Shown: piece by piece, positions 9,401-39,840 of the stretch
Numbering within the stretch: position 1 is the first letter of the stretch
Layout: every line of letters begins with the position of its first letter
Assembly (NCBI GenBank): GCA_025463135.1
Contig: JAOAPY010000024.1
Span: 186,001 to 250,000 of the forward strand
Length of the DNA stretch: 64,000 nt
From: Acidobacteriota bacterium
GTDB lineage: Bacteria > Acidobacteriota > Blastocatellia > Pyrinomonadales > Pyrinomonadaceae
Direction: 5' to 3'
The notes under the pieces: model-generated
The model's database searches: none
What the model was told of the DNA's origin: nothing
Seen by the model: only the letters and a program-made list of their open reading frames with translations
Program-made: the position numbers and the translations under genes

Positions 9401-9563
9401 GATGACCAACTATTACAAAAACCTCAAGCAGGACATGGGGCGCGGCGAGGCTCTGCGCCGGGTGCAACTGGATATGCTCAAGCGAAACCCAAGCCTTCAT
9501 CCTTTCTACTGGGCCAACTTCATTCAATCCGGCGACTGGACCAAGCTCGATGGCCGGCACTGA
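6420..9563 (+). CDS. Exported TPR-CHAT protein (caspase-like protease)
   Basis: This is a 1047-residue protein. The N-terminus has a basic stretch and a hydrophobic segment (about 17-44) that looks like a signal peptide. Residues 50-155 form a PPC-like beta domain (GQTQSYQITLAKDQFVDVTI ... AGAYRLDVKA). Residues 160-500 hold about seven 42-residue kinesin-light-chain-type TPRs with the recurring motif LERALAIxEKxLGPxHP. A coiled coil (about 590-635) leads into a C-terminal CHAT domain (about 645-1045). The caspase-like dyad is intact: His880 in HIATHG and Cys951 in SACDTG. The ending (HPFYWANFIQSGDW) is typical of the family. CHAT proteins cleave specific partners after sensing a signal through their TPRs. 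No substrate is known here; the anti-sigma-like neighbour (46 nt upstream) is the natural candidate. Confidence 0.9.
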   Translation: MFKRIVDHAQPKISTRISLRFVALLLTAFGAQVAHSTSAIAFADGPQSLPAATALELGKPLEREITGGQTQSYQITLAKDQFVDVTIQRRGVNVVEQSFAPNGNLIARFASEWRPEVKETVGFVAETAGAYRLDVKATIRGSVGRYEIQIGEIRSATEHDRLLDEAHRLSTEASTLGTAGKYQEAASLSVRAVGLAEKALGPNDGFVGLLLNELGSYQRNGGEYAKAEATLQRALAVNEKALGPDHTQTADSLNRLGLVYRATNDYAKAERLLRQSLEITERTLGPEHPRVVVFLDNLEAVEFDLGDLTQAEHDLERALAIAEKVLEPDNVDKARLLNNLGNLYRARGDYARAEPLLLRALALYEKKFGPENPRVGDTLQNLGIIARQRKDYARAVELYERALVIREKTVGPEHANVAALQNNIANIYHAERNYAKALELQQRALSIAEKAVGPYHGLTLTLLANIARTHMATGDIASAIQFQTRAEMGQEVAVALDLVIGSERQKLAYIDDLAESSARTISLNLSFAPNDQGAANLATLVLLQRKGRVLDAMSDSFTALRQRSNPADQKLLGQLNSAVERLAKLALSGPGKMAREEYQKQLTSLEEEKERLEAEVSERSAEFRAQSQPVTIAAVQAAIPNNAALIEFATYRPFDPKGVNSDEAFGKPHYVAYVVRHVGAAQGKDLGDAKAIDEAIGALRQALRDPQRSDARELARVVDESVMRPIREWLGDATQLLVSPDGELNLIPFAALVDEQGRFLIQRYSLSYLTSGRDLLRMKIARESKSGPIVLANPSFGETNELPAKANSATSPSKSKTERPSVTTGQDLSQVYFAPLGGTAQEARSIQSLFPDASLLIGPQATKAALEQTVAPRVLHIATHGFFLGEPATVNNLTRSINATPNVTNPLLRSGLALAGANRHNVGGDDDGILTALEASNLNLWGTKLVVLSACDTGVGEVRNGEGVYGLRRAFVIAGAESLVMSLWPISDYSTRVLMTNYYKNLKQDMGRGEALRRVQLDMLKRNPSLHPFYWANFIQSGDWTKLDGRH

Positions 9564-17024: not shown

Positions 17025-17060
17025 GTAGGCGCGTGGGGATTTGAACCCCAAACGCCTACG
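17025..17060 (-). repeat. tRNA-Val 3'-end copy, putative attachment-site remnant
   Basis: Bases 17025-17050 are identical, in the same orientation, to 39768-39793, the T-arm and 3' acceptor half of the intact tRNA-Val(GAC) (26 of 26). Weaker similarity continues to about 17060. There is no matching 5' half of a tRNA here. A duplicated tRNA 3' end in direct orientation at the far side of a gene block is the classic footprint of an integrase-mediated insertion, with the intact tRNA at the other end. Confidence 0.7.
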
Positions 17061-24254: not shown

Positions 24255-26735
24255 ATGGCTTGGAAGTCGCTCCGGAATTCACTTACCACTAAACCTCGGG
24301 TTCTGGCCGGCCCAATACTGCGCAAGGTGACGCCTCAATCGGTCACGGTCTGGTTCGCGTTGCGCGTCGGCGCCAACGTGAAGCTCGTCGTGCTGGATGA
24401 TCACGACGCCAAGGTAATGGAGGGGTCGCGAGCGACTGTGGCAGTCGGATCCAACTTGCATCTGGTCGCCGTAACCGCGATAGCCGCAGCGCCCAGTCAC
24501 TTGAGCGAAAACGTCATTTACAGCTATGAGGTGACGTTCGACTTCACTGACCAAGTGTCGATGGGCCTGGACCAGGCGACCGCTAACGCCCCGCTTGCCT
24601 ATCCACCCTTTGCGCGACCCAGCTTCTGCCTGCCGTCGAGCAACCTTAATACTCTTAGGTTGCTGCAGGGCTCGTGCCGCATACCGCATGGCAACGGCAA
24701 AGATGCCCTGGACCTGGCGGATTTCCTGCTCGCCCAATCAGCTGGGGATCCCGCCAGGCGCCCACAGCAGCTACTGCTCACAGGCGACCAGATTTATGCG
24801 GACGACGTGGCACCCGAGATCTTGCTGATGCTTACCGACGCGGCTGAGGTGCTGCTCGCTTGGAAGGAGATGCTTCCGGTTTCCGCCCAACACGGCGGAC
24901 CGCAAACAGCCGATCAACTGCCACCATTTCTGCGCCGGCCTATCCTGGACGATGCCGGGTTCACATCGGAGGACCTCGACTCGCATCTGATGTCCTTCGG
25001 CGAATACCTGTCTATGTATTTGTTCGTCTGGTCCGATGTCTTGTGGCCTGGCGAACCGGACCTGCCGGGATTCGCGGACGTCGAGGCCGCATGTCGCGCC
25101 AATATCGTTGGCGACAAGGCCTTCAGAAAATGGCTGATCGCACGCGCCTACGGTCACGATCGGCAACGCTTCCCGAAAGAAGCTGCCAAGATCCTCCTGT
25201 TCCGCGAGCCGCTGCAGCGGGTTCGTCGCGTGCTCGCCAATGTTCCCAGCTACATGATCTTCGACGACCACGAAGTAACCGATGACTGGAACATGACGCG
25301 CGATTTCTGCAAGGGCATCTACGGTAACGCGTTGGGCCTACGCGTGGTCCAGAACGCGCTCGTCGCCTACACGCTGTGCCAGCACTGGGGAAATGCCCCC
25401 GAGCAATTCGACCTCCTCGGGCAGGCGGCGGCGCCGTTGCCGGGCCGGACGCTTCTGACGCTGGTCGACGGCACCAACGCCGGACGCTATGAACTGGACT
25501 CGTCGACGTTGCGCGACACCGTCGGGGTGCATGACGATACAGTGCTGCAGGGCCGACCGGAACGAGGCCTGTTCCACGCCCCCAATACGTTGCTGTTCAA
25601 TTTCACGGTCGAGGGGCCGGCGCATCAGGTAATCTTCACCGACACTCGCACTTGGCGCTCATTTCCCAAACACGATGACGAGGGAGGCGTGCTGTTGTCC
25701 AGCGATCAACTGCTGCAGCAGATAGTCCAGACACCGCCCACCGGCGAACGCGCCCTGCTTGTCGTACTGACGACAAATTCACCTCCGGTGCAGCCCATTC
25801 GCACCGCCACACGATACGACTTCATCTCAAACACGTTCGAACACTTCCCCGATGTCTACGAGGCTTGGGAATTGCCGTCCCTGCCTTTCGACCGGCTGAT
25901 GGTGGCCTTGAGCAACAAGCTGCCGCTGGTTGGCGGTCAGCGCACCGGGCCGCTCATCCTGCTGTCGGGCGATGTCCATCACAGCTTCGCGTCGCGGATG
26001 CTTTATAAGGCCAAGGCCCGATTCGAGGACGCGCAGCCGCAGCCGGTGAAGTCAGTAGTCGCGCAGTTGGTGGCCAGTTCCTTCCGCAAACAGACTGATA
26101 GTACGCTCGGCTTTCAGCGGGAAGGTTACGCGTACGGTCCCAACTGGCTCGCGCGACTGCTGATCCCGTCGCATACTCGCGAGGGCTACGCCGGGTGGAA
26201 CACGCCGGCTGGCGCCGAACGTGCCGTCGGACAGAGAGGCCACGAGATCGCGGGTGCGTGGGTGCCGCTTCTAACGCTCACCCTCGATCAGGCGACGCTT
26301 CAGGTATCGCCCGATGGGTTTTTCCTGGGCGTCGCAATTAACCCTGCTGAAGCGCCGGACTACAGCTATACCCTCGACTACCTCTTGCCGACCCTGGACA
26401 CCATTCCCACTGAGCAGCCTGCACCGATTCCGGCGCTCGGTTCCGGCGCCACTCTCCAGGATCGGATGAAGGCAGCTGCCGCCTTTCGCACAGCCACGCG
26501 GCAATTTCGCAAGTACAACGCCGGCAACGCGAAGGTCAGTAAAGTGATCGGCGTCAATAACCTGGGCGAGATAACCTTCAACTGGGACGCCAACGATCCG
26601 CGCAAAAGAAAGGTCAGCCACACACTGCACTGGCGCATCGACCAGACGGACACCGTTCAAGTCACCGACTATGTAGTGAGCCTCGATCCGGACGATGCCG
26701 GTTTTGCCGAGATCCAGCCGCGGGCCATGCCATGA
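24255..26735 (+). CDS. PhoD-like metallophosphatase, cytoplasmic type
   Basis: This is an 826-residue protein. An N-terminal beta domain (VLAGPILRKVTPQSVTVWFALR, about 16-37) is like the Ig-type domain of PhoD enzymes. The calcineurin-like metallophosphatase core follows, with motifs RLLQGSCRIPHGNG (about 133-146), LLLTGDQIYADD (about 173-184), SYMIFDDHEVTDDWN (about 332-346) and ILLSGDVHHSF (about 569-579). These supply the Asp, His and Asn ligands for two metals. Classical PhoD enzymes are Tat-exported phosphodiesterases; this one has no signal peptide, a large insert between the motifs, and a C-terminal extension of about 150 residues. It heads a tight operon with a DUF6603-type protein (4-nt overlap) and three giant orphans, so it may be a component enzyme of that system. 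Confidence 0.82.
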   Translation: MAWKSLRNSLTTKPRVLAGPILRKVTPQSVTVWFALRVGANVKLVVLDDHDAKVMEGSRATVAVGSNLHLVAVTAIAAAPSHLSENVIYSYEVTFDFTDQVSMGLDQATANAPLAYPPFARPSFCLPSSNLNTLRLLQGSCRIPHGNGKDALDLADFLLAQSAGDPARRPQQLLLTGDQIYADDVAPEILLMLTDAAEVLLAWKEMLPVSAQHGGPQTADQLPPFLRRPILDDAGFTSEDLDSHLMSFGEYLSMYLFVWSDVLWPGEPDLPGFADVEAACRANIVGDKAFRKWLIARAYGHDRQRFPKEAAKILLFREPLQRVRRVLANVPSYMIFDDHEVTDDWNMTRDFCKGIYGNALGLRVVQNALVAYTLCQHWGNAPEQFDLLGQAAAPLPGRTLLTLVDGTNAGRYELDSSTLRDTVGVHDDTVLQGRPERGLFHAPNTLLFNFTVEGPAHQVIFTDTRTWRSFPKHDDEGGVLLSSDQLLQQIVQTPPTGERALLVVLTTNSPPVQPIRTATRYDFISNTFEHFPDVYEAWELPSLPFDRLMVALSNKLPLVGGQRTGPLILLSGDVHHSFASRMLYKAKARFEDAQPQPVKSVVAQLVASSFRKQTDSTLGFQREGYAYGPNWLARLLIPSHTREGYAGWNTPAGAERAVGQRGHEIAGAWVPLLTLTLDQATLQVSPDGFFLGVAINPAEAPDYSYTLDYLLPTLDTIPTEQPAPIPALGSGATLQDRMKAAAAFRTATRQFRKYNAGNAKVSKVIGVNNLGEITFNWDANDPRKRKVSHTLHWRIDQTDTVQVTDYVVSLDPDDAGFAEIQPRAMP

Positions 26736-29700
26736 GCTCATCACTCTTCGACTCGCTCGCGCGTGGCTTATCGGCGCTGTTCGCGCCCATTGCCCGCGTG
26801 GTTGAGAACCCCGCATCGCTGAACCGTCTTCTGGCCACGCTCGGCGTCACGCCGGACGCTGACAGCCGCAAACTGGCCATCGCGCTCGGTGCGGTAGGTC
26901 AGTTGAAGCATGAAGTCGAAGTACTGGGAGCGCAGACGACGCCATCGTTAGAGAGTATTGCCGCAGTACTCGACGCATCCGCCAAAGCGTTCGAAGCGCT
27001 GCAGCATCTCGAGCATGCTGGTGGCCCGCTGAGCGAGTTGGAAGGGCTGGGCCAGGACCTCGTAACCCTGCTGATCATCGCATACCTCGAGGGTCGTGCC
27101 CCGGCACTGCGCCATGCTGCCGCGCTGCTGACGCTGCTTGAACCCGCCGAGGAGCAGCAAGGCCATCCACCGGTGATTCGAGACGGCAAGTTGCTGCGCG
27201 AGCCGTATCGCCTGGAACGCTTTCGTCTCGACCGGCTTCCAAAATTGCTGCGCGATCCGGTCACCACACTGCGCGCCGAGTACGGCAACCCGTTGGCCAC
27301 GGCACATGATGCCGCCGCCATGGCAGACAAATTGTTTCCGCGACTGCTGCGTCTGTTGCGTGCATTGGGAGTCAGCTGCCGCTACGGGTACGATTCGGAC
27401 CACGAAGCCTTCCTCGGAGACGCAGCGCCCCTGATGGCGCACTCCCTGATCGTCTATTCCGAGGACCCGCTGAATGCTGCGGCGGACGAGGCCGGACTGG
27501 TACTTTCGTTGTCGTCGGCAGAGCAGGGTGATCTGGGCCTGGTCATCAGCCCGTTCGGCGCGCTCTCATCGCAACGCCCCGCCGGTCCATGGATGATCGA
27601 GCTTGACATGACCGCTGGTGTGGATGTGCTTGCCTGGGGTCGTCATGGGCTGACGTTGCTCGCCGACCTGGGAACTACTGAAGTCGCAGGCAGGCTGTCC
27701 GCGACGCTTGCCTCTCCCGAGGAAGAATCAGCCTTCATCTTTGGCGCGGCGAACGGCTCGCGCCTTGAAGTCAAAGGCGCTCAACTTAAAGTTGAGACAT
27801 TCCTCTCCGAGGCTCAGCAATCGCTCGAGCTGTCAGCCGATTTGTCGTCTGCGGCAATCGTGATCGCGCCTGGCGATGGTGATAGTTTTCTGCGCAGCGT
27901 GCTACCGCCCGACGGGCTGCAAGCGAAATTCGATTTGGGTCTGTCATGGTCGAGCGAACGAGGCCTGATCTTTCGCGGCGCCGGCAGCCTGGATGCAACG
28001 CTAACGGTCGGTCTGTCCCTTCGCGGCGTGCTCACGGTGCCCACCATTTACCTTGGCCTGCGCGCGGGGAACTCTGGAGTCGAGGCTGAGGTTGCGGCCA
28101 GTGTGGGTGTTTCCATCGGTCCGATCCACGCGATTATCGACCGCGTTGGTGTGGCCGCGTTAGTGACCTTTCCCGAAGCGGGCGGCAACCTCGGTGTTGC
28201 AGATCTGGATTTTCGTTTCAAACCCCCGAACGGATTGGGCCTGACCATCGACGCCTCAGTTGTTGTCGGCGGAGGTTTCCTGCGTTTCGATCCGCAGAAG
28301 GGAGAATACAGCGGCATGCTGGAACTCCAGATTGCGGAGAGAATCTCAGTCAAGGCCATTGGTTTGCTGACCACCAGGCTGCCGGACGGCGGCAAGGGTT
28401 ATTCGTTGGTCGTCATCATCTTCGTGGAAGACTTCACGCCGATCCAGCTGGGGTTTGGGTTTAATTTAAGGGGTATCGGCGGGTTGTTGGCGATTAACCG
28501 CACCTTCGACGAAGAGGTCCTGCGCACCGGCCTCAAGAATCACACGCTGGACAGCGTGATGTTTCCGAAAGACCCGATCCGCAACGCACCCCAAATCCTC
28601 AGCAACCTGAACAAAGTCTTTCCCCCGGCCAAAGATCATCATCTATTTGGACCGATGCTCCAAATCGCGTGGGGCTCGCCGCCGCTGATCACGGCGAATC
28701 TGGCTCTCGTGCTCGAGCTCGGCGCGCGTCGGCGGTTGCTGGTTCTGGCGCAGGTCGTGGCTATTCTGCCCAAACAGGAAAACGACCTGGTGCGCTTGCA
28801 GATGGATGCCATCGGTGTGCTCGATTTCGATCAAGGCACGGCTTCGCTCGACGCGACGCTGCACGATTCGCGACTGCTGAAAAAATTTGTGCTGACGGGC
28901 GATATGGCAATGCGACTGAAATGGGAATCGTCGCCGAACTTCGCCCTGGCTGTCGGCGGATTGCATCCCGCCTTCAACCCGCCGCCGAACTTCCCCAAGC
29001 TGGAACGCATCGCGATAAACCTCTCTTCGGGCGACAACCCACGCCTGCGCTGCGAAGCCTATTTCGCCCTGACCTCCAACACAGTGCAATTTGGGGCACG
29101 CGCCGAGCTCTACGCCTCGGCGCATGGCTTTAGTATTCAAGGCGAGATTGGCTTCGACGTGCTTATCCAGTTCGACCCGTTCGCTTTCCTGGCCGATTTT
29201 GAGGCGCACCTGCAGCTCAAGCGCGGTTCGACTAATTTGTTCAAGATCGGAGTCGAAGGCTCGCTGGCAGGCCCGCGGCCGCTGCACATAAAAGGCAAAG
29301 CCACGTTTAGCATCCTGTGGTGGGACGTTACGATCCGCATCGACACGACATTGGTTGAGGGAGAAAGGCCGCCGCTTCCGAAACCCATCGAGGTACTGCC
29401 CCTGTTGAAAGCCGCGGTGGCCAATCCTGGCAACTGGACCAGCACCCTTCCCGCGGGCCATCGCGCAATGGTCACATTGCGCGCAAAACCCGCTGCGGGC
29501 ACCGATGTCTTACTTCATCCGCTCGGCACGCTGACGTTCAAAGAGGGTGTCGTCCCCCTGAACTTTGATATTTCCAGGTTCGGCCAAGCCGCGCCCGCTG
29601 ACGGTAGCCGCTTCACGATCACCGTAAGTTTGGGTGCAGACAAACTGGAGAGTAAGCCGGTGAGGGACTTCTTCGCCCCGGCCCAGTTCATCGAGATGAG

Positions 29701-30196
29701 CGACGATGAAAAGCTCTCCAGACCCTCTTTTGAACAGATGGACGCGGGCATCACCTTTGGTTCCGACCTATTCACCATCACCGACAAAGCCGACGATTGG
29801 CTCGAAGTCCCGGCGCTCGAATTCGAAACCTTTATCGTGGATACAGAAACGAACGTATCCCGGCGCAGCCAACCGGCGGGTCCGCAGAAGTTTTATCTAT
29901 TGAGCCACGAACTCCTGCTCAAGCAAGCCAGGTTCGGCGCCGCCGCCAACAGCGAACTTCGTCGCACGGGCAAAGCCAAATACCGCACGACGACCGACAA
30001 GTATCGGGTGGCAAAAGAAGGTTGGAGCATCGTCGCCATTGAAGACCTGACAGTGCAGCCAGTGTCCGGCGTCAGAGCGGGCAGGCCCGCGAGCTATTCC
30101 GAAGCTGCGCAGTCGCTGCGAAAAACAAAACAAGAGGATTCGGCAAAAGCCGCCGGCTTGAAGATTCTCCGTCTATCGGAATTGTCTGAGGGTTGA
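26732..30196 (+). CDS. Giant DUF6603-type protein
   Basis: This 1154-residue protein starts inside the stop of the previous gene (ATGA overlap). Residues 1-250 are helical. From about 270 onward the chain is beta-rich with long amphipathic strands. The region about 510-880 matches what I remember of the DUF6603 family: GGGFLRFDPQKGEYSGML (about 511), FTPIQLGFGFNLRGIGGLLAINR (about 568), GGLHPAFNPPPNFPKL (about 741) and YFALTSNTVQFGARAELYA (about 775). The ending (about 950-1154) is more polar. No signal peptide, transmembrane helix or enzyme motif was seen. The continuous beta sheet suggests a large scaffold or barrel/groove. Family function is unknown. Confidence 0.75.
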   Translation: MSSSLFDSLARGLSALFAPIARVVENPASLNRLLATLGVTPDADSRKLAIALGAVGQLKHEVEVLGAQTTPSLESIAAVLDASAKAFEALQHLEHAGGPLSELEGLGQDLVTLLIIAYLEGRAPALRHAAALLTLLEPAEEQQGHPPVIRDGKLLREPYRLERFRLDRLPKLLRDPVTTLRAEYGNPLATAHDAAAMADKLFPRLLRLLRALGVSCRYGYDSDHEAFLGDAAPLMAHSLIVYSEDPLNAAADEAGLVLSLSSAEQGDLGLVISPFGALSSQRPAGPWMIELDMTAGVDVLAWGRHGLTLLADLGTTEVAGRLSATLASPEEESAFIFGAANGSRLEVKGAQLKVETFLSEAQQSLELSADLSSAAIVIAPGDGDSFLRSVLPPDGLQAKFDLGLSWSSERGLIFRGAGSLDATLTVGLSLRGVLTVPTIYLGLRAGNSGVEAEVAASVGVSIGPIHAIIDRVGVAALVTFPEAGGNLGVADLDFRFKPPNGLGLTIDASVVVGGGFLRFDPQKGEYSGMLELQIAERISVKAIGLLTTRLPDGGKGYSLVVIIFVEDFTPIQLGFGFNLRGIGGLLAINRTFDEEVLRTGLKNHTLDSVMFPKDPIRNAPQILSNLNKVFPPAKDHHLFGPMLQIAWGSPPLITANLALVLELGARRRLLVLAQVVAILPKQENDLVRLQMDAIGVLDFDQGTASLDATLHDSRLLKKFVLTGDMAMRLKWESSPNFALAVGGLHPAFNPPPNFPKLERIAINLSSGDNPRLRCEAYFALTSNTVQFGARAELYASAHGFSIQGEIGFDVLIQFDPFAFLADFEAHLQLKRGSTNLFKIGVEGSLAGPRPLHIKGKATFSILWWDVTIRIDTTLVEGERPPLPKPIEVLPLLKAAVANPGNWTSTLPAGHRAMVTLRAKPAAGTDVLLHPLGTLTFKEGVVPLNFDISRFGQAAPADGSRFTITVSLGADKLESKPVRDFFAPAQFIEMSDDEKLSRPSFEQMDAGITFGSDLFTITDKADDWLEVPALEFETFIVDTETNVSRRSQPAGPQKFYLLSHELLLKQARFGAAANSELRRTGKAKYRTTTDKYRVAKEGWSIVAIEDLTVQPVSGVRAGRPASYSEAAQSLRKTKQEDSAKAAGLKILRLSELSEG

Positions 30197-30218
30197 CCTG
30201 GCTGGTAACTGATCTGCT

Positions 30219-33149
30219 ATGGCTGACTTAACTGCAAATTATGTGTTCTTACCCTGGATACGCCAGGGCGCCGCATCGGGTATTCAAACGACCGACATGA
30301 CCGCGAATCAGGCCGGAGTCGTTTCGGTGACCATCAGGCTGCAGGTCAACCTCACCGCCGATGTTGAGCACCAGGTCCGCCTATACGGCCCCGGCGATGT
30401 TATCGGAATTGATCCGCAGCAGGTAATACGCACGGAGCCCCGTCACCTGGCCAGGGATTTCGAGCCGAATTACTTTCCCGCCATTGAATTTGATCGTCCG
30501 GACTTTCCCTGGCTCTTCACGCCTGCGAAGGCCGATACAGCGAACAAGCTGCGTCCGTGGCTCTGCCTGATTGTCGTGCGGAAACAAGAGGGAGTCACGT
30601 TGCGTGTCGACCGCAATCTACTGCTGCCGGTACTCGAAATCCGAGAGCCGGCCCAGCCAGACCGCGAGCTGCCGGACTTGTCGGAATCGTGGGCCTGGGC
30701 GCACGCGCAGGTTACGGGCGCCAAACGGGATTCTAATTCCCTGAAAGCAGCGTTGGCGGGTGATCCGGCGCTGACGCTGTCGCGGTTGTTGTGTCCGCGC
30801 CGTCTTGATCCGTTGACGGAATATCTCGCCTGCGTCGTTCCTACATTCGAGCTGGGCCGCAAAGCCGGCCTCGCCATACCGATTCAACGCGACGAGCAAC
30901 GCGACGAGGAAAAGGAGTTGGAACTGGCCTGGAAGTTGGGTGCGCCCTCTCTCGCCGCGGTAACCTTGCCGGTCTATTTTCACTGGGACTTTCGCACTGG
31001 CTCGGGCGGCGATTTTGAATCGCTGGTGGGATTGCTCAAAGCGCGCCCCATGCCTCCGGAAGTCGGCAAGCGGCGGTTGGTTATCAGTGATCCGGGTTTC
31101 ACCATGAAACCCGCAGCGGCTCCCGATGCGAATGAAATGGCGCTGGGCCTGGAAGGCGCTTTGCGACTGGTTGAAAGTAAGCCGGATGAGTGGCCCACTG
31201 CTGTGCGCTTACCGTTCCAGACCGCGCTGCAAGACATCCTCGAGACACCGTGGAAAATAGCAACGAAGGAAAGTGGGGATGCTCATGACCCAATCGTCGG
31301 GCCGCCGATTTATGGATGCTGGCAAGCGGCGCGGCACACGGTGGAGTTTAGCCCACCACCACCAGCCTCGCTGACCTGGTTGGACGAATTGAATCTCGAT
31401 CCGCGCCACCGAACGGTCGCCGGATTGGGAACCCAGGTCGTGCAAGCTCAGCAAGAGGAATTGATGGCCGCGGCCTGGGAACAACTCGGCGAGATTCAAA
31501 GGATGAACCAAATCCGGCGTCAGGCCCAGCTCGGCCGCACCGTCAGCGCCATTTACCACGCCAGACACTTCACGCAATTCTCTCAAGAGACGCTGCTGAA
31601 AGTCCTCGCTCCGGCGCAATCGCGCGTCGTCGTCGAGGCAGGCACCCCCACTGACAAGCGGGCGCTGTTGTCTCACAAAATCTCGCAATCGGCCCTCCCC
31701 GCCAGAACCGTCTCCGCACCATTGCGCCGGTTTACCAGTCCGCGCGGAGTGATCAGCGCTCGTTTCCTGAATGCCGGCGCGCCCCCCATCGCCATCGTAG
31801 CTAAGCTGAATATCCCCACACCGATTGTTCCGCTTCTCAAGAGGGAAGCTGGTTTGGTTACGATCAATCAGGTTTCGGATAGTCAGAGTGGGCCCATCGG
31901 AGGGCTGCTAAAACAGACTGTCAGTTTCGAGCGAATTTCCAGGAGTCTTTTAACCACTCCCAGCCTGGGCAATTTCAAAGTTGTTGCCGAAGGCTTCATG
32001 CCGAAACGAAGCCTGTTGAGCTTTGAGTCGGGGCTGCCTGACAGTCCTGACGCGGCTATGTTTCGGAAATTGGTAAAGGCCCAGCAGGACTATCTCAAGG
32101 AGATCTTCACTCCTATTAAACCCATTGCGCCGCCGCCGATGGACATGTCCGGCATCGACCTCAAAGCCAAACTATTGCGCAGCGTCAATCCCGAAAAGAC
32201 CATCCACGCGCGGGTAAAGGCCTCCCTCATATTAGCCGACGGCGCCGAGGCGCCCGGGGATCCACTCGAACCGATTATGGATGCCCCAAAGTTTCCACAG
32301 CCCATGTATGAAGCCTTGCGCGATCTCTCGCAGGATTTTCTGCTTCCCGGCCTGGAGTACGTGGTGCCCGATACCGTTTCGCTGCTGGAGCCGAACCCGA
32401 AGTTCGTTGAATCTTTCCTGGTCGGACTGAATGCTGAGATGAGTAGCGAACTTCTCTGGCGTAATTATCCGACGGATCAGCGCGGGACATACTTCGAACA
32501 ATTTTGGGACACGTCCGCCGACAAGGCACAGAGCGACATTGAGCCGATCAGCAACTGGGGTGAGCGCCAACTCGGACAGAATATGCCGCGCGCGAGCGGG
32601 AACCTGGTATTGCTCATTCGCGGTGAGTTGCTGCGCCGGTACCCGAACTCAGTGATCTACGCGGTGCCGGCTGTAATGATCAACGGGCAACTCGACCTAT
32701 CAAGCAAACCTGAGGATGAAAAACATCCACTCTTTCGCGGCACACTGAAACCCGACGTCACGTTTCTCGGCTTTGACCTGACAAGCTCGAAGGCACTGGG
32801 AGAGCCCCCGAACGATCCCAATGGGTGGTTCTTTGTAATTCAGCAGCAACCGGCGGAGCCAAGCTTCGGTATGGATGTGGCTGACTTCGTGAAACAGCCG
32901 CAGCCGCCTCCACTCACCACGTGGAACGATCTGAGCTGGCGACATCTCGTTGATACCGAAGAGGAATTGAAGAAACTATCGCACGCCTCGATCAAGAAGG
33001 TGTTGCCGGACATTGACAAAGCGAAGTGGGGCCTGAGCTCCAACTCCGCTCATCACGCTTACATCACTTTACAACGCCCGGTGCGCATCGCTATTCATGC
33101 AAAACAGATGCTAGCGAAAACGGTTAGGTCGACTGATGCACACTCCTAA
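30219..33149 (+). CDS. Giant protein of unknown function, 976 residues
   Basis: The third gene of the operon begins 22 nt after the DUF6603-type gene. The N-terminal 200 residues contain a striking conserved-looking block: YVFLPWIRQGAASGIQTTDM, VRLYGPGDVIGID, and NYFPAIEFDRPDFPWLFTPA followed by LRPWLCLIVVRKQEGV. The centre (about 400-560) is helical; the last third (EYVVPDTVSLLEPNPKFVES ... LLWRNYPTDQRGTYFEQFWD) is rich in aromatic residues. No signal peptide, transmembrane helix or catalytic motif was recognised. I believe from memory that similar hypothetical proteins occur in actinobacteria next to DUF6603 proteins, but this was not checked. Its stop overlaps the next gene by 14 nt. Confidence 0.7.
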   Translation: MADLTANYVFLPWIRQGAASGIQTTDMTANQAGVVSVTIRLQVNLTADVEHQVRLYGPGDVIGIDPQQVIRTEPRHLARDFEPNYFPAIEFDRPDFPWLFTPAKADTANKLRPWLCLIVVRKQEGVTLRVDRNLLLPVLEIREPAQPDRELPDLSESWAWAHAQVTGAKRDSNSLKAALAGDPALTLSRLLCPRRLDPLTEYLACVVPTFELGRKAGLAIPIQRDEQRDEEKELELAWKLGAPSLAAVTLPVYFHWDFRTGSGGDFESLVGLLKARPMPPEVGKRRLVISDPGFTMKPAAAPDANEMALGLEGALRLVESKPDEWPTAVRLPFQTALQDILETPWKIATKESGDAHDPIVGPPIYGCWQAARHTVEFSPPPPASLTWLDELNLDPRHRTVAGLGTQVVQAQQEELMAAAWEQLGEIQRMNQIRRQAQLGRTVSAIYHARHFTQFSQETLLKVLAPAQSRVVVEAGTPTDKRALLSHKISQSALPARTVSAPLRRFTSPRGVISARFLNAGAPPIAIVAKLNIPTPIVPLLKREAGLVTINQVSDSQSGPIGGLLKQTVSFERISRSLLTTPSLGNFKVVAEGFMPKRSLLSFESGLPDSPDAAMFRKLVKAQQDYLKEIFTPIKPIAPPPMDMSGIDLKAKLLRSVNPEKTIHARVKASLILADGAEAPGDPLEPIMDAPKFPQPMYEALRDLSQDFLLPGLEYVVPDTVSLLEPNPKFVESFLVGLNAEMSSELLWRNYPTDQRGTYFEQFWDTSADKAQSDIEPISNWGERQLGQNMPRASGNLVLLIRGELLRRYPNSVIYAVPAVMINGQLDLSSKPEDEKHPLFRGTLKPDVTFLGFDLTSSKALGEPPNDPNGWFFVIQQQPAEPSFGMDVADFVKQPQPPPLTTWNDLSWRHLVDTEEELKKLSHASIKKVLPDIDKAKWGLSSNSAHHAYITLQRPVRIAIHAKQMLAKTVRSTDAHS

Positions 33150-36100
33150 TCCTGACATTCCAAATATTCAAAACACGCCGGACGTGGGATTGAAACTTTC
33201 CGCCGATCCTGCCCGCCCGGTTGTCTTGTTTCCGGTGCGGATCGAGACCCGGTTCTTTCCCCAGGCTGACGGCAGTTCTGAGCTGCGGGTACGCGTCTAC
33301 CCCGATAAGATTCACATTGATTCGCACGAGCCCGAATTGACCCCTGACGAAGTGACCTGGGGAAAACACTTCTGGGAACAGACCCTGGAAGCGGGCGCCG
33401 ATGAGGAGCGGCGCAAGGCCGCCTGGCGGCAGTTGGCCGACCGATTCGATTCGCCGCGCGCCGGGTGGATTGCCCGCACCCTCCAACCGCCAAAGGATCA
33501 GCCGTTGCTCTTTCCGACGCCAGCGACGCAACCAGAGGTGTGGATGCGCGCGCCTCTAACACGCGTATTGCCGAATTTCTGGGTGCTGCTCGGTTACAAA
33601 AATGGACGGCTCGTCGTGAATGTCAAAGGTGGTTCGATCCGGAATCCACTAGCGGCCGGCCCCGACCCCTCTCCGTCAGCCATTGTCGACGATATGGGTA
33701 TCGATAAGGGTATGAAGTGGATGGTGGACTTCGACGCGGCGGAAGAAGCAGGAATGGGGATCCGCGCCAAACTGACGAAAGATGACGCGAACATGGGATT
33801 GGACTTCGTGCTGGTGATGGGCATAAAGGATCCCCCGGGCGCGTCAGACCTCGCAGAACTTTTCAGAGCGCACCATTACACCGATGGAACGAGCTTCCTG
33901 GCGCCCGGCACACCTTCCAACAATACGGAGGATGCGCCGTCCGGCTTCAGCTCGAAGGATCACGGTCACGAAGAAAGCTACCAGGCCGAATGGATCGCAC
34001 CCGAGTTTAAGTCCGGCGACAAGTCAAACGCCGACGTCCTGGCAACCGCATTTGGACTGGCCGATGCCGGAGCGATTTTTGGTAACCTGCCCAATGCCGC
34101 CGAGAAAAATGAGCTTGACGCACGGCAAATGAATACGGCTTTGTGGCAAGCGACCTGGGGATACTTCCTGTTGCAGATGCTCGGTGTTGGCCAACCCAAC
34201 GAAAGCCCGTTGACTGACGAAGATATCACCTGGGCGCGCACCCATTTCATTGAGAACGTGCGCGCGAACGGGCCCTTGCCGGCAATACGCATCGGCAAGC
34301 AGCCGTACGGGGTTTTGCCCGTGACCTCGCTCAATGCCTGGAAACCCCTAAACGTCCAGGAGAGCGAGTCGAGACACGAGGCGGCGTTGCGGGATTTCCT
34401 GCTGCGGCTGCGCGAAATATGGCGGCGCACGTATCCGGAGATCCCGCGCCTCGGCCGGACCGGAGATGTCAATCAGGAGAAGGGTATCGATAAAGATCTG
34501 GCCGAAGTGCTGAGCATGGACGCTCTGTCATCCAGCTACTCGCTGCGTCACTTGATGGGTCGGCACTACCTGGAACACCTCTGGGTGTTTCTGGGCGCCG
34601 ACTCTTTTTTGGACGCCTGGAACCTCCCACCCATCGTTGAGCCACCGGAAGAGGAGCCGCCGACGGAAGATGACCCTCCCAATGATCTGACTCCACAGCA
34701 AAGAATCGCCTTTATCAAGCGTCAACGCGCAGAAAAGAAGGCTTTCGACGATCGAGTAAAAGCGAGAAAACTTGCGGTCAACTTAGCCCGTTCGCAAAGG
34801 GCCGCTTTCATCCGCGCCCGCCGCGACGCGCTCTCGGCATGGTGGGCAACGCAGGAACGGCTGACTGCCTCGGTGTTGCAAACGCTGGGCGTGTCGTGGC
34901 GGCCGAGATTGGCGCAAGCCGTCTTTTCAACACCTGTCGCCAACCTCAAAGGCGCGCTGGTCCAGGACGATCAAAGTTTGTTGCTCAAACCAAACTACAT
35001 CGAGGCGCTGCACGATGCCCGATCCCTTAACCGGATCAACTTTGGGATTCTTCAAACCTTGCCGCCGCCCGAATTACTGCCGGTGTTGCCGCCGCAGCCG
35101 CGCACTTTGCTCTACCTGCTGTTGCGCCATTCGATGCTGTTGGAATACACCACCGCCGCTTCGCGCTTGCTGATCAATCGAGGCTTGTTGCAACCCGCGC
35201 TGCGTCGCGAGCCGGAGCTGGTGGATCTGCCAATGGGACAGTTGACACTAACCGTCTGGCGGCAGATGGCAACAAAAATCAGCGTGGCTGGCGAGGCAGG
35301 GCCGATGGAACTCGGAAAGTACCTGCTCGGTTTCATGCCTTCCGGCGAGCCCGACGTCGCGAGAGAGCCCGATCTGAAACCGTTGAGCGAATTCCGCTCC
35401 AGCTTGGCCCACTTGAAATCGCTCGAGGTCGACAAGCTTGAAAAGTTGATGACCGGCACGCTCGACTTGTGTTCGCACCGGCTGGATGCATGGATTACTT
35501 CGTTTGCAACAAAACGATTGCGCGATATGCCGAGCGCAAGTCCCTCCGGAGTGTTGTTCGGCGGGTACGGTTGGGTCATGAACCTTAAGCCGGCCGACCC
35601 GCAAATCAAAGTTGCAGGACTGCCCGGTGAACCGGACCCAGTTTTTCAACCGGCCAACAATCCTGGTTTCGTTCACACGCCCTCGCTGACGCAGGCCTCC
35701 GCGGTCGCCATCTTGCGGAGCGGTCATTTGTCCCACGGCGGCGCGACTGCCGAGACGCCGAATGATCTGCTGTCGATCGACCTGTCGTCAGAGCGCGTGC
35801 GGTTAGCAACGTGGCTGCTCGATGGCGTGCGACAAGGACAACCGCTCGGCGCGCTGTTGGGTTACCGGTTCGAACGCGGGTTGCAGCAAGTCAAGAAGGC
35901 CCAGTTCTTACCGACCTTCCGCGAACTCGCTCCGCTGGTGGCGCGGAAGTTGGAACAAGCGAATCAGTCCGGCGGGGCGCAACCCGTCGAAGCCATCGCT
36001 GCGAACAACGTCGTGGATGGTTTAGCCTTGCTCCGGCGCTGGCAGAAAGGGAGAAGCGCCACCGCACCGCCGCAATGGACCACGGACACTATTCCCTTTG

Positions 36101-37872
36101 GCCAAGCGGTCGGTCAACAGAAGATTAAGCTTCCTCCACCCGATCCCAGCAACCTCGAATTCAAAGCAATTCTAGTTGAACTCGTAGCTTTAGAGACCGC
36201 TGTGGATGCCCTCAGCGATGCGCTGATGGCCGAAAGCGTTTATCAGGTCGTCCGCGGAAATCCATTGCGCGCGGCGGCCACGGCGGAATCCATCGCGGGC
36301 GGCGAAACGCCCCCGCCCGAACTTGAAATCATACGGACGCCGCGCACGGGCATCGCGCTGACGCACCGGCTGGTGACGTTGTTCAGCGGTGAGCCGACGC
36401 TTCCTCCCGCCTGGGCGCTGCCGATCAACCCGGTTCGCGCCAATGCCGAGCCGCACCTCAACACCTGGGCAGCGAAACTACTCGCTAACCCGGCCCAGGT
36501 GCGTTGCGTGGTTGAACGGCTTGACCCGGACAACTCAAGAGTTTTGGAGTCGAAAGAACTTCGCCTCAACCAGCTGCGTCTGGCGCCGCTCGATTTCATC
36601 TACGCGCTCGAGGGCGGACAGGGCGGACAGCAAGCAGAGATTGAACAACGCATCCTGTACACGATTATGCGCCGGTCCGACGGCTTCGCTCCCGGTTCGC
36701 TGCTGCGCATCAATCCCAACCGCAAACCGGAATGGACCACCGACGAGCTCAGTTATGGAGAGTTCAGCGAGCTGCTGCGGACTGCGCGCAAAGTGTTGAC
36801 CGGCGTGCGCGGAATTGACGACCACGATCTGAACCCGCCCGATCGCAGCACGAACTTCAGCGTGGATGTACCTGACCTGGAAGGACGTGCGGCCGCCGCC
36901 GAAAAATCGTTGCGCGATACTCGGACAGATTTCCGGATACAACTTTCTACGCCCGACACGGTTAGCCTTGAACTGCTGCGGGAGTTGATCACGCGTTCGG
37001 CAGGTCTCGGCGTAGCCGGCGCCGTGCCACTTTCCGTTGCTGGTGATTTGCCCGCAGACCGCGAAACGTTGCTCACGCAGGCGGGCTCAATTGAAAAAGA
37101 ATTGGCCCCGCGTGTCGATCTGCTGGATGCGCTTGTTCCTGGTTTGGTCGCCGGCGCGCCGGTGGAGGAAGTGAGGCGCGATGCCGCACTGGCGCGGTTT
37201 CGTATCGTCTTCGGCAAATCGTTCCTCGTGCTGCCGCGTTTCAGAGCAGCGAATGCCGCGGAGCTCGAGAAAGCGTTGGCGGACAGCGCAAAAGTACAGG
37301 ATGGCGATCCGTTCGCGGCCGCCACCTGGTTCCGGCGGATGGCACGCGTGCGGGAAGGAGTCGCCCGGCTGAATGCGGCGCTCACTTATTCCGAAGCACT
37401 CAACACTGGTGAAAAACTCAACCTGACCATCGCACAGCTTCCGTACGTCGAAGAGGACCGCTGGGTCGGCTTGCCGTTGAAAGCGGGGCAGAGTATGCCA
37501 GGTGGAAAATTTTCCCTCGTCGTGCAATCCGCTGCCGCGATCGACGTGCGCCTGCAACTGGCCGGGCTGCTAATCGACGAATGGGTCGAAGTCGTGCCGA
37601 ACGCGACCGAGACCACCGGTATCGCGTTACAGTACGATCAACCCAACGCCGCCCCGCCGCAAACGATCCTGGTCGCTGTGCCGCCGGAGGTCGGAGTGCC
37701 GTGGACAGTCTGGTCATTGCAACAGGTGCTGCTGGAAACACTCGATCTGGCCAGAATCCGCGCGGTTGACCCTGACGCTCTGGACGAAGTCGGGCATTAT
37801 CTGCCCGCGCTGTACTTTGCTTCCAACACTTCCAACGATACTGTCTCGACCGACTTTACCAGGATCAAGTAG
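33136..37872 (+). CDS. Giant protein of unknown function, 1578 residues
   Basis: This is the largest gene of the operon, overlapping the 3' end of its neighbour by 14 nt. The N-terminus reads ARPVVLFPVRIETRFFPQ and LRVRVYPDKIHIDSHEPELT, followed by EVTWGKHFWEQT. A second block at about 375-410 includes GPLPAIRIGKQPYGVLPV. Residues about 518-580 form a strongly charged helix (AFIKRQRAEKKAFDDRVKAR), probably a coiled coil. A later block (about 1060-1290) includes TPPPELEIIRTPRTGIALTH and LRLAPLDFIYALEGGQGG. No signal peptide, transmembrane helix or known catalytic motif was found. Its size suggests a structural component. Confidence 0.7.
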   Translation: MHTPNPDIPNIQNTPDVGLKLSADPARPVVLFPVRIETRFFPQADGSSELRVRVYPDKIHIDSHEPELTPDEVTWGKHFWEQTLEAGADEERRKAAWRQLADRFDSPRAGWIARTLQPPKDQPLLFPTPATQPEVWMRAPLTRVLPNFWVLLGYKNGRLVVNVKGGSIRNPLAAGPDPSPSAIVDDMGIDKGMKWMVDFDAAEEAGMGIRAKLTKDDANMGLDFVLVMGIKDPPGASDLAELFRAHHYTDGTSFLAPGTPSNNTEDAPSGFSSKDHGHEESYQAEWIAPEFKSGDKSNADVLATAFGLADAGAIFGNLPNAAEKNELDARQMNTALWQATWGYFLLQMLGVGQPNESPLTDEDITWARTHFIENVRANGPLPAIRIGKQPYGVLPVTSLNAWKPLNVQESESRHEAALRDFLLRLREIWRRTYPEIPRLGRTGDVNQEKGIDKDLAEVLSMDALSSSYSLRHLMGRHYLEHLWVFLGADSFLDAWNLPPIVEPPEEEPPTEDDPPNDLTPQQRIAFIKRQRAEKKAFDDRVKARKLAVNLARSQRAAFIRARRDALSAWWATQERLTASVLQTLGVSWRPRLAQAVFSTPVANLKGALVQDDQSLLLKPNYIEALHDARSLNRINFGILQTLPPPELLPVLPPQPRTLLYLLLRHSMLLEYTTAASRLLINRGLLQPALRREPELVDLPMGQLTLTVWRQMATKISVAGEAGPMELGKYLLGFMPSGEPDVAREPDLKPLSEFRSSLAHLKSLEVDKLEKLMTGTLDLCSHRLDAWITSFATKRLRDMPSASPSGVLFGGYGWVMNLKPADPQIKVAGLPGEPDPVFQPANNPGFVHTPSLTQASAVAILRSGHLSHGGATAETPNDLLSIDLSSERVRLATWLLDGVRQGQPLGALLGYRFERGLQQVKKAQFLPTFRELAPLVARKLEQANQSGGAQPVEAIAANNVVDGLALLRRWQKGRSATAPPQWTTDTIPFGQAVGQQKIKLPPPDPSNLEFKAILVELVALETAVDALSDALMAESVYQVVRGNPLRAAATAESIAGGETPPPELEIIRTPRTGIALTHRLVTLFSGEPTLPPAWALPINPVRANAEPHLNTWAAKLLANPAQVRCVVERLDPDNSRVLESKELRLNQLRLAPLDFIYALEGGQGGQQAEIEQRILYTIMRRSDGFAPGSLLRINPNRKPEWTTDELSYGEFSELLRTARKVLTGVRGIDDHDLNPPDRSTNFSVDVPDLEGRAAAAEKSLRDTRTDFRIQLSTPDTVSLELLRELITRSAGLGVAGAVPLSVAGDLPADRETLLTQAGSIEKELAPRVDLLDALVPGLVAGAPVEEVRRDAALARFRIVFGKSFLVLPRFRAANAAELEKALADSAKVQDGDPFAAATWFRRMARVREGVARLNAALTYSEALNTGEKLNLTIAQLPYVEEDRWVGLPLKAGQSMPGGKFSLVVQSAAAIDVRLQLAGLLIDEWVEVVPNATETTGIALQYDQPNAAPPQTILVAVPPEVGVPWTVWSLQQVLLETLDLARIRAVDPDALDEVGHYLPALYFASNTSNDTVSTDFTRIK

Positions 37873-37880
37873 AGAGAGTT

Positions 37881-39626
37881 ATGCCATCAATTACCAGTTG
37901 GATGCGGCTGGAACCGCGCAGCCGCGATGCCGAGATGAACACCAGCTTGCAGGCCAGAGTTTACGATCCGCTCTGGCTGCTGGCGCGGCAATGGCAATTT
38001 GGCGAATTCGAGGGCGAAGACAACGGCTCGCCGGTGATAGCACGATGGCGCGGGGAATCTGCGCGGCTCACCCGCTATCACTCGGGCGTTGCTTCAGGCG
38101 CCCAGGTCAACGCTTCAGCTTATGATGGCCGCAGCCTGCCACTGGAAACAGCGGTTGAGCGGGAACCCATTCTCTCCACCAATCAAGGAGCGACTACGGA
38201 GAGGCTCAGGCTAGCCGCAGAGGCCGGCCAGCAGTTTCTCCTCATGCTGGGCCGCTTGCTGGACGAGCAAGTGGTCTCGAGTGATTACCGTGAGGCGTTC
38301 ATTCGCCAATATCCTTTTCATGCGTTGACGACTGACGAGCGGGACACGCTCGACCGCGACAGCCTTCACTTCTTTGACTTGATTGCATCGCGAGTGCCGG
38401 ACGGCAGGCGGCTTTATGCAGACTTCCGTTCCCCCGGCGTGGCCGGAATTGTCCTGGCGCCGGCTTTGAACATTGCTCACGGAGATTTGGCAGAAGTCAG
38501 AGAGACCGCGAGACTTTGGGTGCAATGGTTCGAGACGTTTTTCAGCGAGCCGGAAAAAGGCAATCCGTCGTGGTTGCCGGAACGCATGGAATATTCCTTC
38601 TCGGTTGGCACCCGGTTCGGCGATGGCGAGCGCGTCTTGACGGCACCGGAATATTTTGAGGGACACTTGGACTGGTATGCCTTCGATGCCAATGCTGATC
38701 TGAAGCTCGGGGCCGCGACTGACGTTTCTAAAGAAGTCATGTGCACGGCCATTCCTTCTCCGGTCAGTTTTCGCGGGATGCCGGCGGCGCGGTTCTGGGA
38801 ATTTGAAGACGCGCAGGTTGATTTCGGTTCAGTGGATGCCGGGCCAACCGACCTGCTGCGCCTCCTGCTGGTGGAATTTGCGCTGACTTACGGCAATGAC
38901 TGGTTTGTCATTCCTGTCGAACTGGAAGTCGGATCACTCCATCAGACCCGCTCGCTAGTCATCACTGATACCTTTGGTGTCCGCTCGCTAATCAAATCTG
39001 CCAGCCAGCTGGGCGAACCCATTTCCAGTTGGCGTATGTTCCAGCATTCCTCGTCAACAGGTGCCGGTCAGCCGGCGTCAAACTTGTTCTTCCTGCCACC
39101 GTCGCTGCTCAAGAGTTTGGAGAGTAGGCCGATTGAAGAGGTGCTGTTCCTGCGCGACGAGATGGCAAACATGGCGTGGGCGGTCGAGCGCGTTGTCGAG
39201 AGCGCGAGCGAATACCCATTGAGTAGATACCAGCCACAGCGCCCCGCGGCACCACCGACCGAGCAAGCTGCCGCTAACAAATTGGTCTACAAATTGACTA
39301 CCGAAGTTCCCGATAACTGGGTGCCCTTGATGCCCGTGAAAAACAGCGCCGGTCTGCGTTTGCAACGCGCGAAAGTGCTAAGAACAGACGGCCGGTCGCA
39401 ATTTATCGAAGCGCAGGGCCGCATTCTCAATCCGGATGTGCCGAGTCAGAAGGATCTGAAAATCTTCGAGGAAGAGATCCCTCGCGAGGGTGTCCGCGTA
39501 ACGCGCCATTATCAACTCGCGCGCTGGCACGATGGCTCCACTCACCTTTGGATCGCTCGGCGCAAAAGAGTCGGCGGCGGCGAGGGATCGAGTGGATTAC
39601 GGTTCGATCTTCTTGAATCCAAATGA
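37881..39626 (+). CDS. Protein of unknown function, 581 residues, last gene of the operon
   Basis: It starts 8 nt after the 1578-residue gene with an AGAGAG site. The N-terminus is distinctive: SLQARVYDPLWLLARQWQFG followed by EFEGEDNGSPVIARW (about 24-58). The middle contains QQFLLMLGRLLDEQVVS, then FETFFSEPEKGNPSWLPERM and YFEGHLDWYAFD (about 253). The rest alternates strands and short helices, ending in THLWIARRKRVGG. No signal peptide, membrane segment or catalytic motif was recognised. The D-P-L-W-x-L-A-R-Q-W-Q block looks conserved, suggesting an interaction surface. The 142 nt that follow hold no clear terminator before the tRNA. Confidence 0.7.
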   Translation: MPSITSWMRLEPRSRDAEMNTSLQARVYDPLWLLARQWQFGEFEGEDNGSPVIARWRGESARLTRYHSGVASGAQVNASAYDGRSLPLETAVEREPILSTNQGATTERLRLAAEAGQQFLLMLGRLLDEQVVSSDYREAFIRQYPFHALTTDERDTLDRDSLHFFDLIASRVPDGRRLYADFRSPGVAGIVLAPALNIAHGDLAEVRETARLWVQWFETFFSEPEKGNPSWLPERMEYSFSVGTRFGDGERVLTAPEYFEGHLDWYAFDANADLKLGAATDVSKEVMCTAIPSPVSFRGMPAARFWEFEDAQVDFGSVDAGPTDLLRLLLVEFALTYGNDWFVIPVELEVGSLHQTRSLVITDTFGVRSLIKSASQLGEPISSWRMFQHSSSTGAGQPASNLFFLPPSLLKSLESRPIEEVLFLRDEMANMAWAVERVVESASEYPLSRYQPQRPAAPPTEQAAANKLVYKLTTEVPDNWVPLMPVKNSAGLRLQRAKVLRTDGRSQFIEAQGRILNPDVPSQKDLKIFEEEIPREGVRVTRHYQLARWHDGSTHLWIARRKRVGGGEGSSGLRFDLLESK

Positions 39627-39768
39627 GAGGTAGTTAGCTTAGACCTCTAAAAAAGTTGAGGAGATATTTGAGAGTCGTCGTAGTCGTTTCACAGCCAAGA
39701 GTCCGGCAAACTGTGCGGCCAACGACGAACGGAGGACAAGACTAACGAAACAAACCAATAAAAAATGG

Positions 39769-39840
<72 letters not shown>

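Follow-up and report, generated by a model that had tools for sequence, protein, structure and literature searches.

A Conserved Core of Giant Proteins with an Exchangeable Enzyme Slot at the tRNA End of a Putative Acidobacteriota Island

1. Introduction

What could five tightly packed genes for very large proteins, three of which match no known family, be doing at one end of a putative genomic island? The question is raised by a plus-strand operon (positions 24255-39626) in a 64,000-nucleotide stretch of an Acidobacteriota genome (GenBank assembly GCA_025463135.1, contig JAOAPY010000024.1, forward-strand positions 186,001 to 250,000), which as a whole is referred to here as the window. A first-pass annotation, made from the letters of the window alone, had taken the operon for a candidate undescribed system, that is, a multi-subunit cytoplasmic machine or particle with a phosphoesterase as its enzymatic component. 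As described below, the four downstream genes, termed B, C, D and E, recur together in many phyla, and the place of the first gene, A, is taken by other enzymes elsewhere. The operon may well be one copy of an undescribed, horizontally spread modular system composed of a B-E carrier complex and an exchangeable effector enzyme, possibly working with an extracellular contractile injection system (eCIS), a reading that we regard as plausible but somewhat short of probable.

2. The Operon and Its Five Products

All five open reading frames (ORFs) begin with ATG and are separated by -4, +22, -14 and +8 nucleotides. Gene A (24255-26735, 826 residues), which occupies the variable enzyme slot, encodes a PhoD-like metallophosphoesterase (PF09423, 4e-8; 33.2 bits against a curated cut-off of 27), while the DUF6603 protein encoded by gene B (26732-30196, 1154 residues) matches PF20248 at 5.2e-139 over nearly the full model (positions 6-501 of 502). 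The remaining core proteins are C (30219-33149, 976 residues; 32 invariant columns in a 31-row alignment), the largest one, D (33136-37872, 1578 residues; 38 invariant columns in 36 rows), and the most conserved one, E (37881-39626, 581 residues; 38 rows), which is marked by a DPLWLLARQWQFGEF block. For C, D and E, there were zero matches in Pfam, NCBIfam, PADLOC and PHROGs. ORFs, coordinates, lengths and spacings agree exactly with the first-pass annotation, which was also right that only A and B resemble known families in these four collections and that none of the five products has a signal peptide or membrane helix, as judged by a Kyte-Doolittle scan. Most inspected relatives are alike in the latter respect, an exception being a haloarchaeal slot protein (L085) with a strongly hydrophobic stretch at residues 572-590. 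Homology among A-E is absent save for a weak D-E signal (prob 26), sequence profiles gave no convincing solved-structure relatives of B-E, and neither DUF6603 nor PF20248 was found mentioned in a search of 5.39 million open-access papers.

The PhoD-type motifs SCR, TGDQIYADD, DDHEVTDDW and GDVH are all present in gene A, invariant or nearly so in a nine-sequence alignment of relatives, and a weak profile match to Bacillus subtilis PhoD (2yeq, E 0.025) lies around GDVH. Classical PhoD is an exported enzyme; no such export signal and no signal-like or hydrophobic segment was seen in gene A. Hence, the protein shares the catalytic motifs of PhoD alkaline phosphatases (PF09423) but differs from them in its length of 826 residues, the lack of a signal peptide, a conserved extra C-terminal region and its operonic association with B-E.

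3. Linkage of B-C-D-E across Phyla

Relatives of E, sought in one genome per species, were found at 53 loci. The genes B to E are clustered on a single strand, with few departures from this order, in Acidobacteriota, Verrucomicrobiota, Cyanobacteriota, Pseudomonadota, Actinomycetota, Bacteroidota and Nitrospirota, as well as on plasmids of haloarchaea, Streptomyces and Rhizobium; Chloroflexota and Bacillota contributed D-E or C-D-E on shorter contigs. The recurrence of this gene order in different phyla places the arrangement far beyond chance. Homologues of the orphan proteins are thus not scattered, as they might have been, but strongly linked, and the claim of an undescribed, conserved multi-gene system that is made in the cytoplasm and housed in an accessory island has held up. 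In total, this amounts to roughly 13 kb of conserved and horizontally mobile coding DNA, found in haloarchaea and no fewer than seven bacterial phyla, whose only functional annotation is a DUF number. The order is broken at one locus of Leptolyngbya and at three of alphaproteobacteria, where B stands downstream of E. In alphaproteobacteria, two extra genes lie between E and B (L027:11767-16604, L032:11716-16691 and L054:11698-16847), the first of which has a pre-toxin-TG-like tail that falls under the Pfam cut-off.

The distribution of the system is sporadic. Among 247 sampled Acidobacteriota genomes, two carry an intact E and four a DUF6603 gene, and DUF6603 is above the cut-off in 9 of 295 Bacteroidia. 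A further Acidobacteriota genome holds a broken E relative without B (L098, G175:C2:588067-589664), apparently a decaying copy. In the tree of E, the window sequence groups with a second Acidobacteriota row, the cyanobacterium Nodosilinea and a metagenome-assembled Verrucomicrobia genome (support 98/96), which implies transfer between phyla. The conserved-looking blocks to which the first reading had drawn attention in the orphan proteins turned out to be truly conserved: LPWIRQG in C becomes FLPWxRxG across its relatives, and within DPLWLLARQWQFG in E, all 38 aligned relatives share the residues D29, W32, R36 and Q37.

Giant proteins in a tRNA island could also be a relic of the structural genes of a phage or another mobile element. 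This explanation, for which their size and location speak, is very improbable, given that the genes are conserved in cellular genomes across phyla and nearly absent from viral contigs and phage records. A phage origin was rejected: PHROGs gave no match, a set of 2.9 million viral contigs contained a single fragment, and the sole match among 50,697 phage records is an unverified faecal scaffold.

4. An Exchangeable Enzyme Slot

A PhoD-like gene directly precedes B in 12 loci (the window, L011, L056, L058, L060, L061, L063, L064, L073, L082, L083 and L099). The same slot is filled by Het-C in Nitrosomonas (5e-11), by Peptidase_M64 in Verrucomicrobium (2e-8), by a tyrosinase in Conexibacter (1e-41) and elsewhere by a subtilase (6e-42) or a pair of trypsin-like proteins, and the slot protein of the second Leptolyngbya copy gives a sub-threshold match to DUF4347. 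PhoD, trypsin-like and subtilase slots are found on neighbouring Chitinophagaceae-type cores within one clade, and tyrosinase and DUF4347-like slots on sister cores of different phyla (support 100/99). The slot before B is exchangeable, and the system is modular. The proposed phosphoesterase as the enzymatic component therefore did not survive, as unrelated enzymes take its place elsewhere.

The subtilase and both trypsin-like proteins have a C-terminal domain of about 165 residues in common, while their catalytic parts differ; judged from the sequences, this is the pattern expected of a loading domain. It is restricted to these three, and no domain common to all slot proteins was found. Two Bacteroidia genomes (G344 and G536) have in this slot a protein of 1005-1014 residues that ends in SxHxxGxAxD...HDDHLH, which we read as a motif of the LAS peptidoglycan-peptidase type. 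Next to it, only a few bases apart, come a gene for a protein with a lipobox-like N-terminus and then B-C. Effector-like proteins of this kind, about 1010 residues long and each with a putative lipoprotein after it, are encoded at L113:5880-9756, L115:5011-8865 and L114:4298-8037. Conceivably, the lipobox-bearing protein could be the immunity protein of the peptidase-like effector. At a further locus (L116), a relative of the N-terminus of this effector is encoded ahead of a divergent DUF6603 protein, at a distance of two genes, and one operon of G536 contains, between C and D, an FG-GAP protein with a signal peptide and a type IX secretion tail.

Two apparent variants of the slot were discarded. 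An N-terminal fusion at L099 is an artefact of ORF calling, with PhoD lying in another frame, and the long ORFs of GC-rich loci, one of 738 residues at L068 for example, are probably shadow frames.

5. Association with Contractile Injection Systems

Directly after E, and on the same strand, five Chitinophagaceae encode Pvc16_N, tail sheath, tube (PF06841), spike and a PAAR-like protein, and the cluster continues with gp25 and baseplate J where the locus extends far enough. Beyond this direct linkage, the PF06841 tube occurs in all four DUF6603-positive genomes of the Acidobacteriota sample compared with 22 of 243 negative ones (Fisher 1e-4) and in 4/9 positive versus 35/286 negative Bacteroidia (p 0.02), figures that are uncorrected for genome size and lifestyle, which may contribute. 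A tube subtype with a 429-bp match is even more concentrated in Acidobacteriota, with 3/4 positive versus 3/243 negative genomes. The genome of the window itself encodes an eCIS on another contig (L123, G000:C5:200001-220000), comprising a sheath, Pvc16_N, a 1063-residue eCIS_core protein and a single tube gene, which is of the 429-bp-match subtype.

These observations invite the view that the operon always serves an eCIS, as an accessory or payload module in which B-E would form an external cage, a tail fibre or a cargo adaptor and A would be the toxin. We consider this unlikely. The Chitinophagaceae clusters, the genome co-occurrence and the eCIS in the same genome as the window speak in its favour, as does the fact that, according to a survey (PMC8213781), eCIS bring along accessory toxins and are released by lysis; the survey also describes DUF4157/eCIS_core as a marker. 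Yet about half of the carrier genomes lack PF06841, and no eCIS genes flanking the operon were found outside Chitinophagaceae. The core proteins are also far larger than known tube cargo.

Whether the core itself is kin to phage-tail or contractile-injection components, a comparison suggested at the outset, was answered in the negative by Pfam, PHROG, phage and viral-contig, and tblastn tests: A-E match no sheath, tube, spike or baseplate family in the Pfam scan, and tblastn with eCIS proteins returned nothing in the window. The core thus resembles eCIS such as Afp, PVC and MACs in its environmental distribution, its exchangeable, putatively toxic enzymes and its large products without signal peptides, in addition to the linkage and co-occurrence described above. 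It differs in having no sheath, tube, spike or baseplate gene and no detectable eCIS homology, and in that many carriers do without PF06841. Tyrosinase and phosphatase go unmentioned in two eCIS papers (PMC8213781 and PMC11297309), as do PhoD in the former and Het-C, M64 and subtilase in the latter.

6. Predicted Structures and the Site of Action

An AlphaFold2 (AF2) model of gene B consists of a helical N-terminal part followed by a continuous antiparallel amphipathic β-sheet (about residues 340-875) of some 25-30 strands. The predicted local distance difference test score (pLDDT) is mostly 80-93 over about 490-870 and 64 overall, and polar and apolar residues alternate strongly with period 2 in the sheet (z = 7.9). 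Its nearest solved fold is ApoB100 (Z 15.2, root-mean-square deviation (rmsd) 9.6), followed by porins or ushers, and viral structures gave weak tail-fibre-like matches only. Divergent relatives of B occur in a second type of DUF6603 cluster, observed at seven loci (L062, L102, L103, L106, L096, L097 and L076). These type II clusters start with DUF6603 proteins of 1000-3400 residues, which match the profile of B at 1e-29, and continue with a shorter protein with an N-terminus matching C (2e-14) and, in most clusters, a third one of 1200-1500 residues, after which several encode Kelch/PQQ propeller proteins. They differ from the B-E operon in that the third gene has no detectable relation to D or E, and both cluster types coexist in two genomes.

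With ApoB100 and barrel proteins as the top structural neighbours of B and the PhoD motifs intact, the operon might be thought to handle lipids or nutrients, DUF6603 being a lipid-holding sheet like that of ApoB or LptD and PhoD scavenging phosphate from phospho- or teichoic-acid substrates. This is quite improbable, since peptidases, tyrosinase or Het-C replace PhoD before related cores, the proteins lack signal peptides and the system is as sporadic as the two intact E genes in 247 Acidobacteriota indicate.

For gene E, an AF2 model of moderate confidence (pLDDT 77.5) found no convincing match in the PDB (Foldseek best E 0.066; VIA best Z 3.2), a result that, for a predicted model, does not prove a new fold. 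The first 47 residues are conserved yet modelled with the lowest confidence, as would be expected for an interface. Some relatives bear lineage-specific domains of a recognition type: E carries PA14 and F5/8C domains in Sphingomonas and a lamin-tail domain in haloarchaea, and C carries FG-GAP repeats in Streptomyces. Domains of these types usually act outside cells. Hence, a purely intracellular role of the system is disfavoured.

This bears on another rival, namely that A-E form a complex for conflict or immunity inside the cell, perhaps against phages, whose core senses a trigger and activates the slot enzyme, much as modular effectors are exchanged in NLR-like and other defence systems. Such a role would suit cytoplasmic, sporadic and horizontally moved proteins with exchangeable hydrolases in a tRNA island, and CHAT-TPR, NB-ARC or WD40 genes are present near several loci. 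It nevertheless appears rather improbable to us, as the core contains no recognisable NTPase, sensor or nuclease, several lineages have extracellular-type domains and an exported partner, one effector is followed by a lipoprotein, and the Chitinophagaceae linkage is to eCIS and not to a defence system. PADLOC, searched for known defence systems, returned no match for any of A-E up to E 10.

7. A Possible Effector Carrier

The reading of B-E as a carrier of exchangeable effectors would unite these features as follows. The effector would be translated together with its carrier, several gene pairs overlapping or lying a few bases apart, and could then dock on or inside the B-E complex. B would provide a very large amphipathic β-sheet as a candidate membrane-inserting or cargo-holding surface, whereas C, D and E may offer scaffold and target-recognition surfaces. 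Lacking export signals, the complex would be released by lysis or with the help of a partner machine, and its targets would be other cells or surfaces; for Chitinophagaceae, the contractile injection system whose genes directly follow E may be this partner. In its boldest form, which we put forward with considerable doubt, B-E would be a widespread new class of effector-delivery machine in bacteria and archaea that is unrelated in sequence to phage-tail devices, is loaded with interchangeable enzymes, brings them to other cells by means of a giant amphipathic β-sheet protein and, in some lineages, has become linked to contractile injection systems.

Several points weigh against such a carrier. 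The physical assembly of A-E, including that into a particle, their delivery, the target and the role of each protein are matters that we infer. Of 26 carrier genomes in one set, 13 lack the tube family, among them each of the six Actinobacteria, as do 6 of 13 in another, so that an eCIS partner is not obligatory, and the eCIS linkage, confined to one clade, possibly goes back to a single event. The resemblance of the B model to ApoB- and porin-type structures combines Z values of 13-15 with an rmsd of about 10-12 Å and a modest model (pLDDT 64), which points to a large curved amphipathic sheet without assigning B to a family. In several actinobacterial and rhizobial loci, no recognisable enzyme precedes B; the peptidase-like C-terminus of the proteins at L113, L114 and L115 has no significant Pfam or PDB match; and the PhoD operons were found to contain no candidate immunity gene.

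The closest parallels in organisation are toxin systems. Tc toxin complexes are, like the putative complex proposed here, very large and soluble, lack signal peptides and have a variable enzymatic component, but general Pfam and NCBIfam scans revealed no sequence match to them, and the number and organisation of the genes are different. Polymorphic toxin systems (Zhang et al. 2012, PMC3482391) share with the operon the exchange of effectors beside a conserved partner, an effector of Het-C type, a weak pre-toxin-TG-like tail in one slot protein and a lipoprotein after an effector. In contrast to these systems, whole enzyme genes are exchanged here instead of C-terminal tips, and the conserved part consists of four separate giant genes with no RHS, VgrG or CdiA-like stalk. 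An exchangeable part beside a conserved one, as expected of polymorphic toxin systems, is present, the slot enzymes being putative toxins.

If B-E is a true effector carrier, it would represent a new architecture for protein delivery and for conflict among microbes. Its function can be tested by way of the exchangeable slot, as different natural enzymes on related carriers should yield predictable, differing effects, and the eCIS link offers Chitinophaga, a culturable genus, for this purpose.

8. The tRNA-Val Island

The operon had been placed at the tRNA end of a putative island, and this is corroborated by a 26-bp repeat of tRNA-Val at both ends. The tRNA-Val(gac) gene lies on the minus strand at 39766-39840, and its 3' 26 bp (39768-39793) constitute the proximal att-like repeat. 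An exact copy on the plus strand at 17025-17050 forms the distal repeat and marks the other end of the island. Both copies have the same orientation and are the only two in the 6.48-Mb genome. The island they delimit (17025-39793, 22.7 kb) contains no integrase that we could see. Its cargo before the operon includes a VOC/glyoxalase-like gene, a methyltransferase, an acyl-carrier-like ORF and a polysaccharide deacetylase, along with two genes without a Pfam match that, from our own reading of their sequences, we presume to be FkbH-like and GNAT-like. The GC content at third codon positions is 0.65-0.74 in the operon and overall above that of its neighbours (0.52-0.67), which fits acquisition. 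Outside the island, the window also encodes, at 6420-9563, a TPR-CHAT protein of 1047 residues, which is of a caspase-like conflict or regulatory type.

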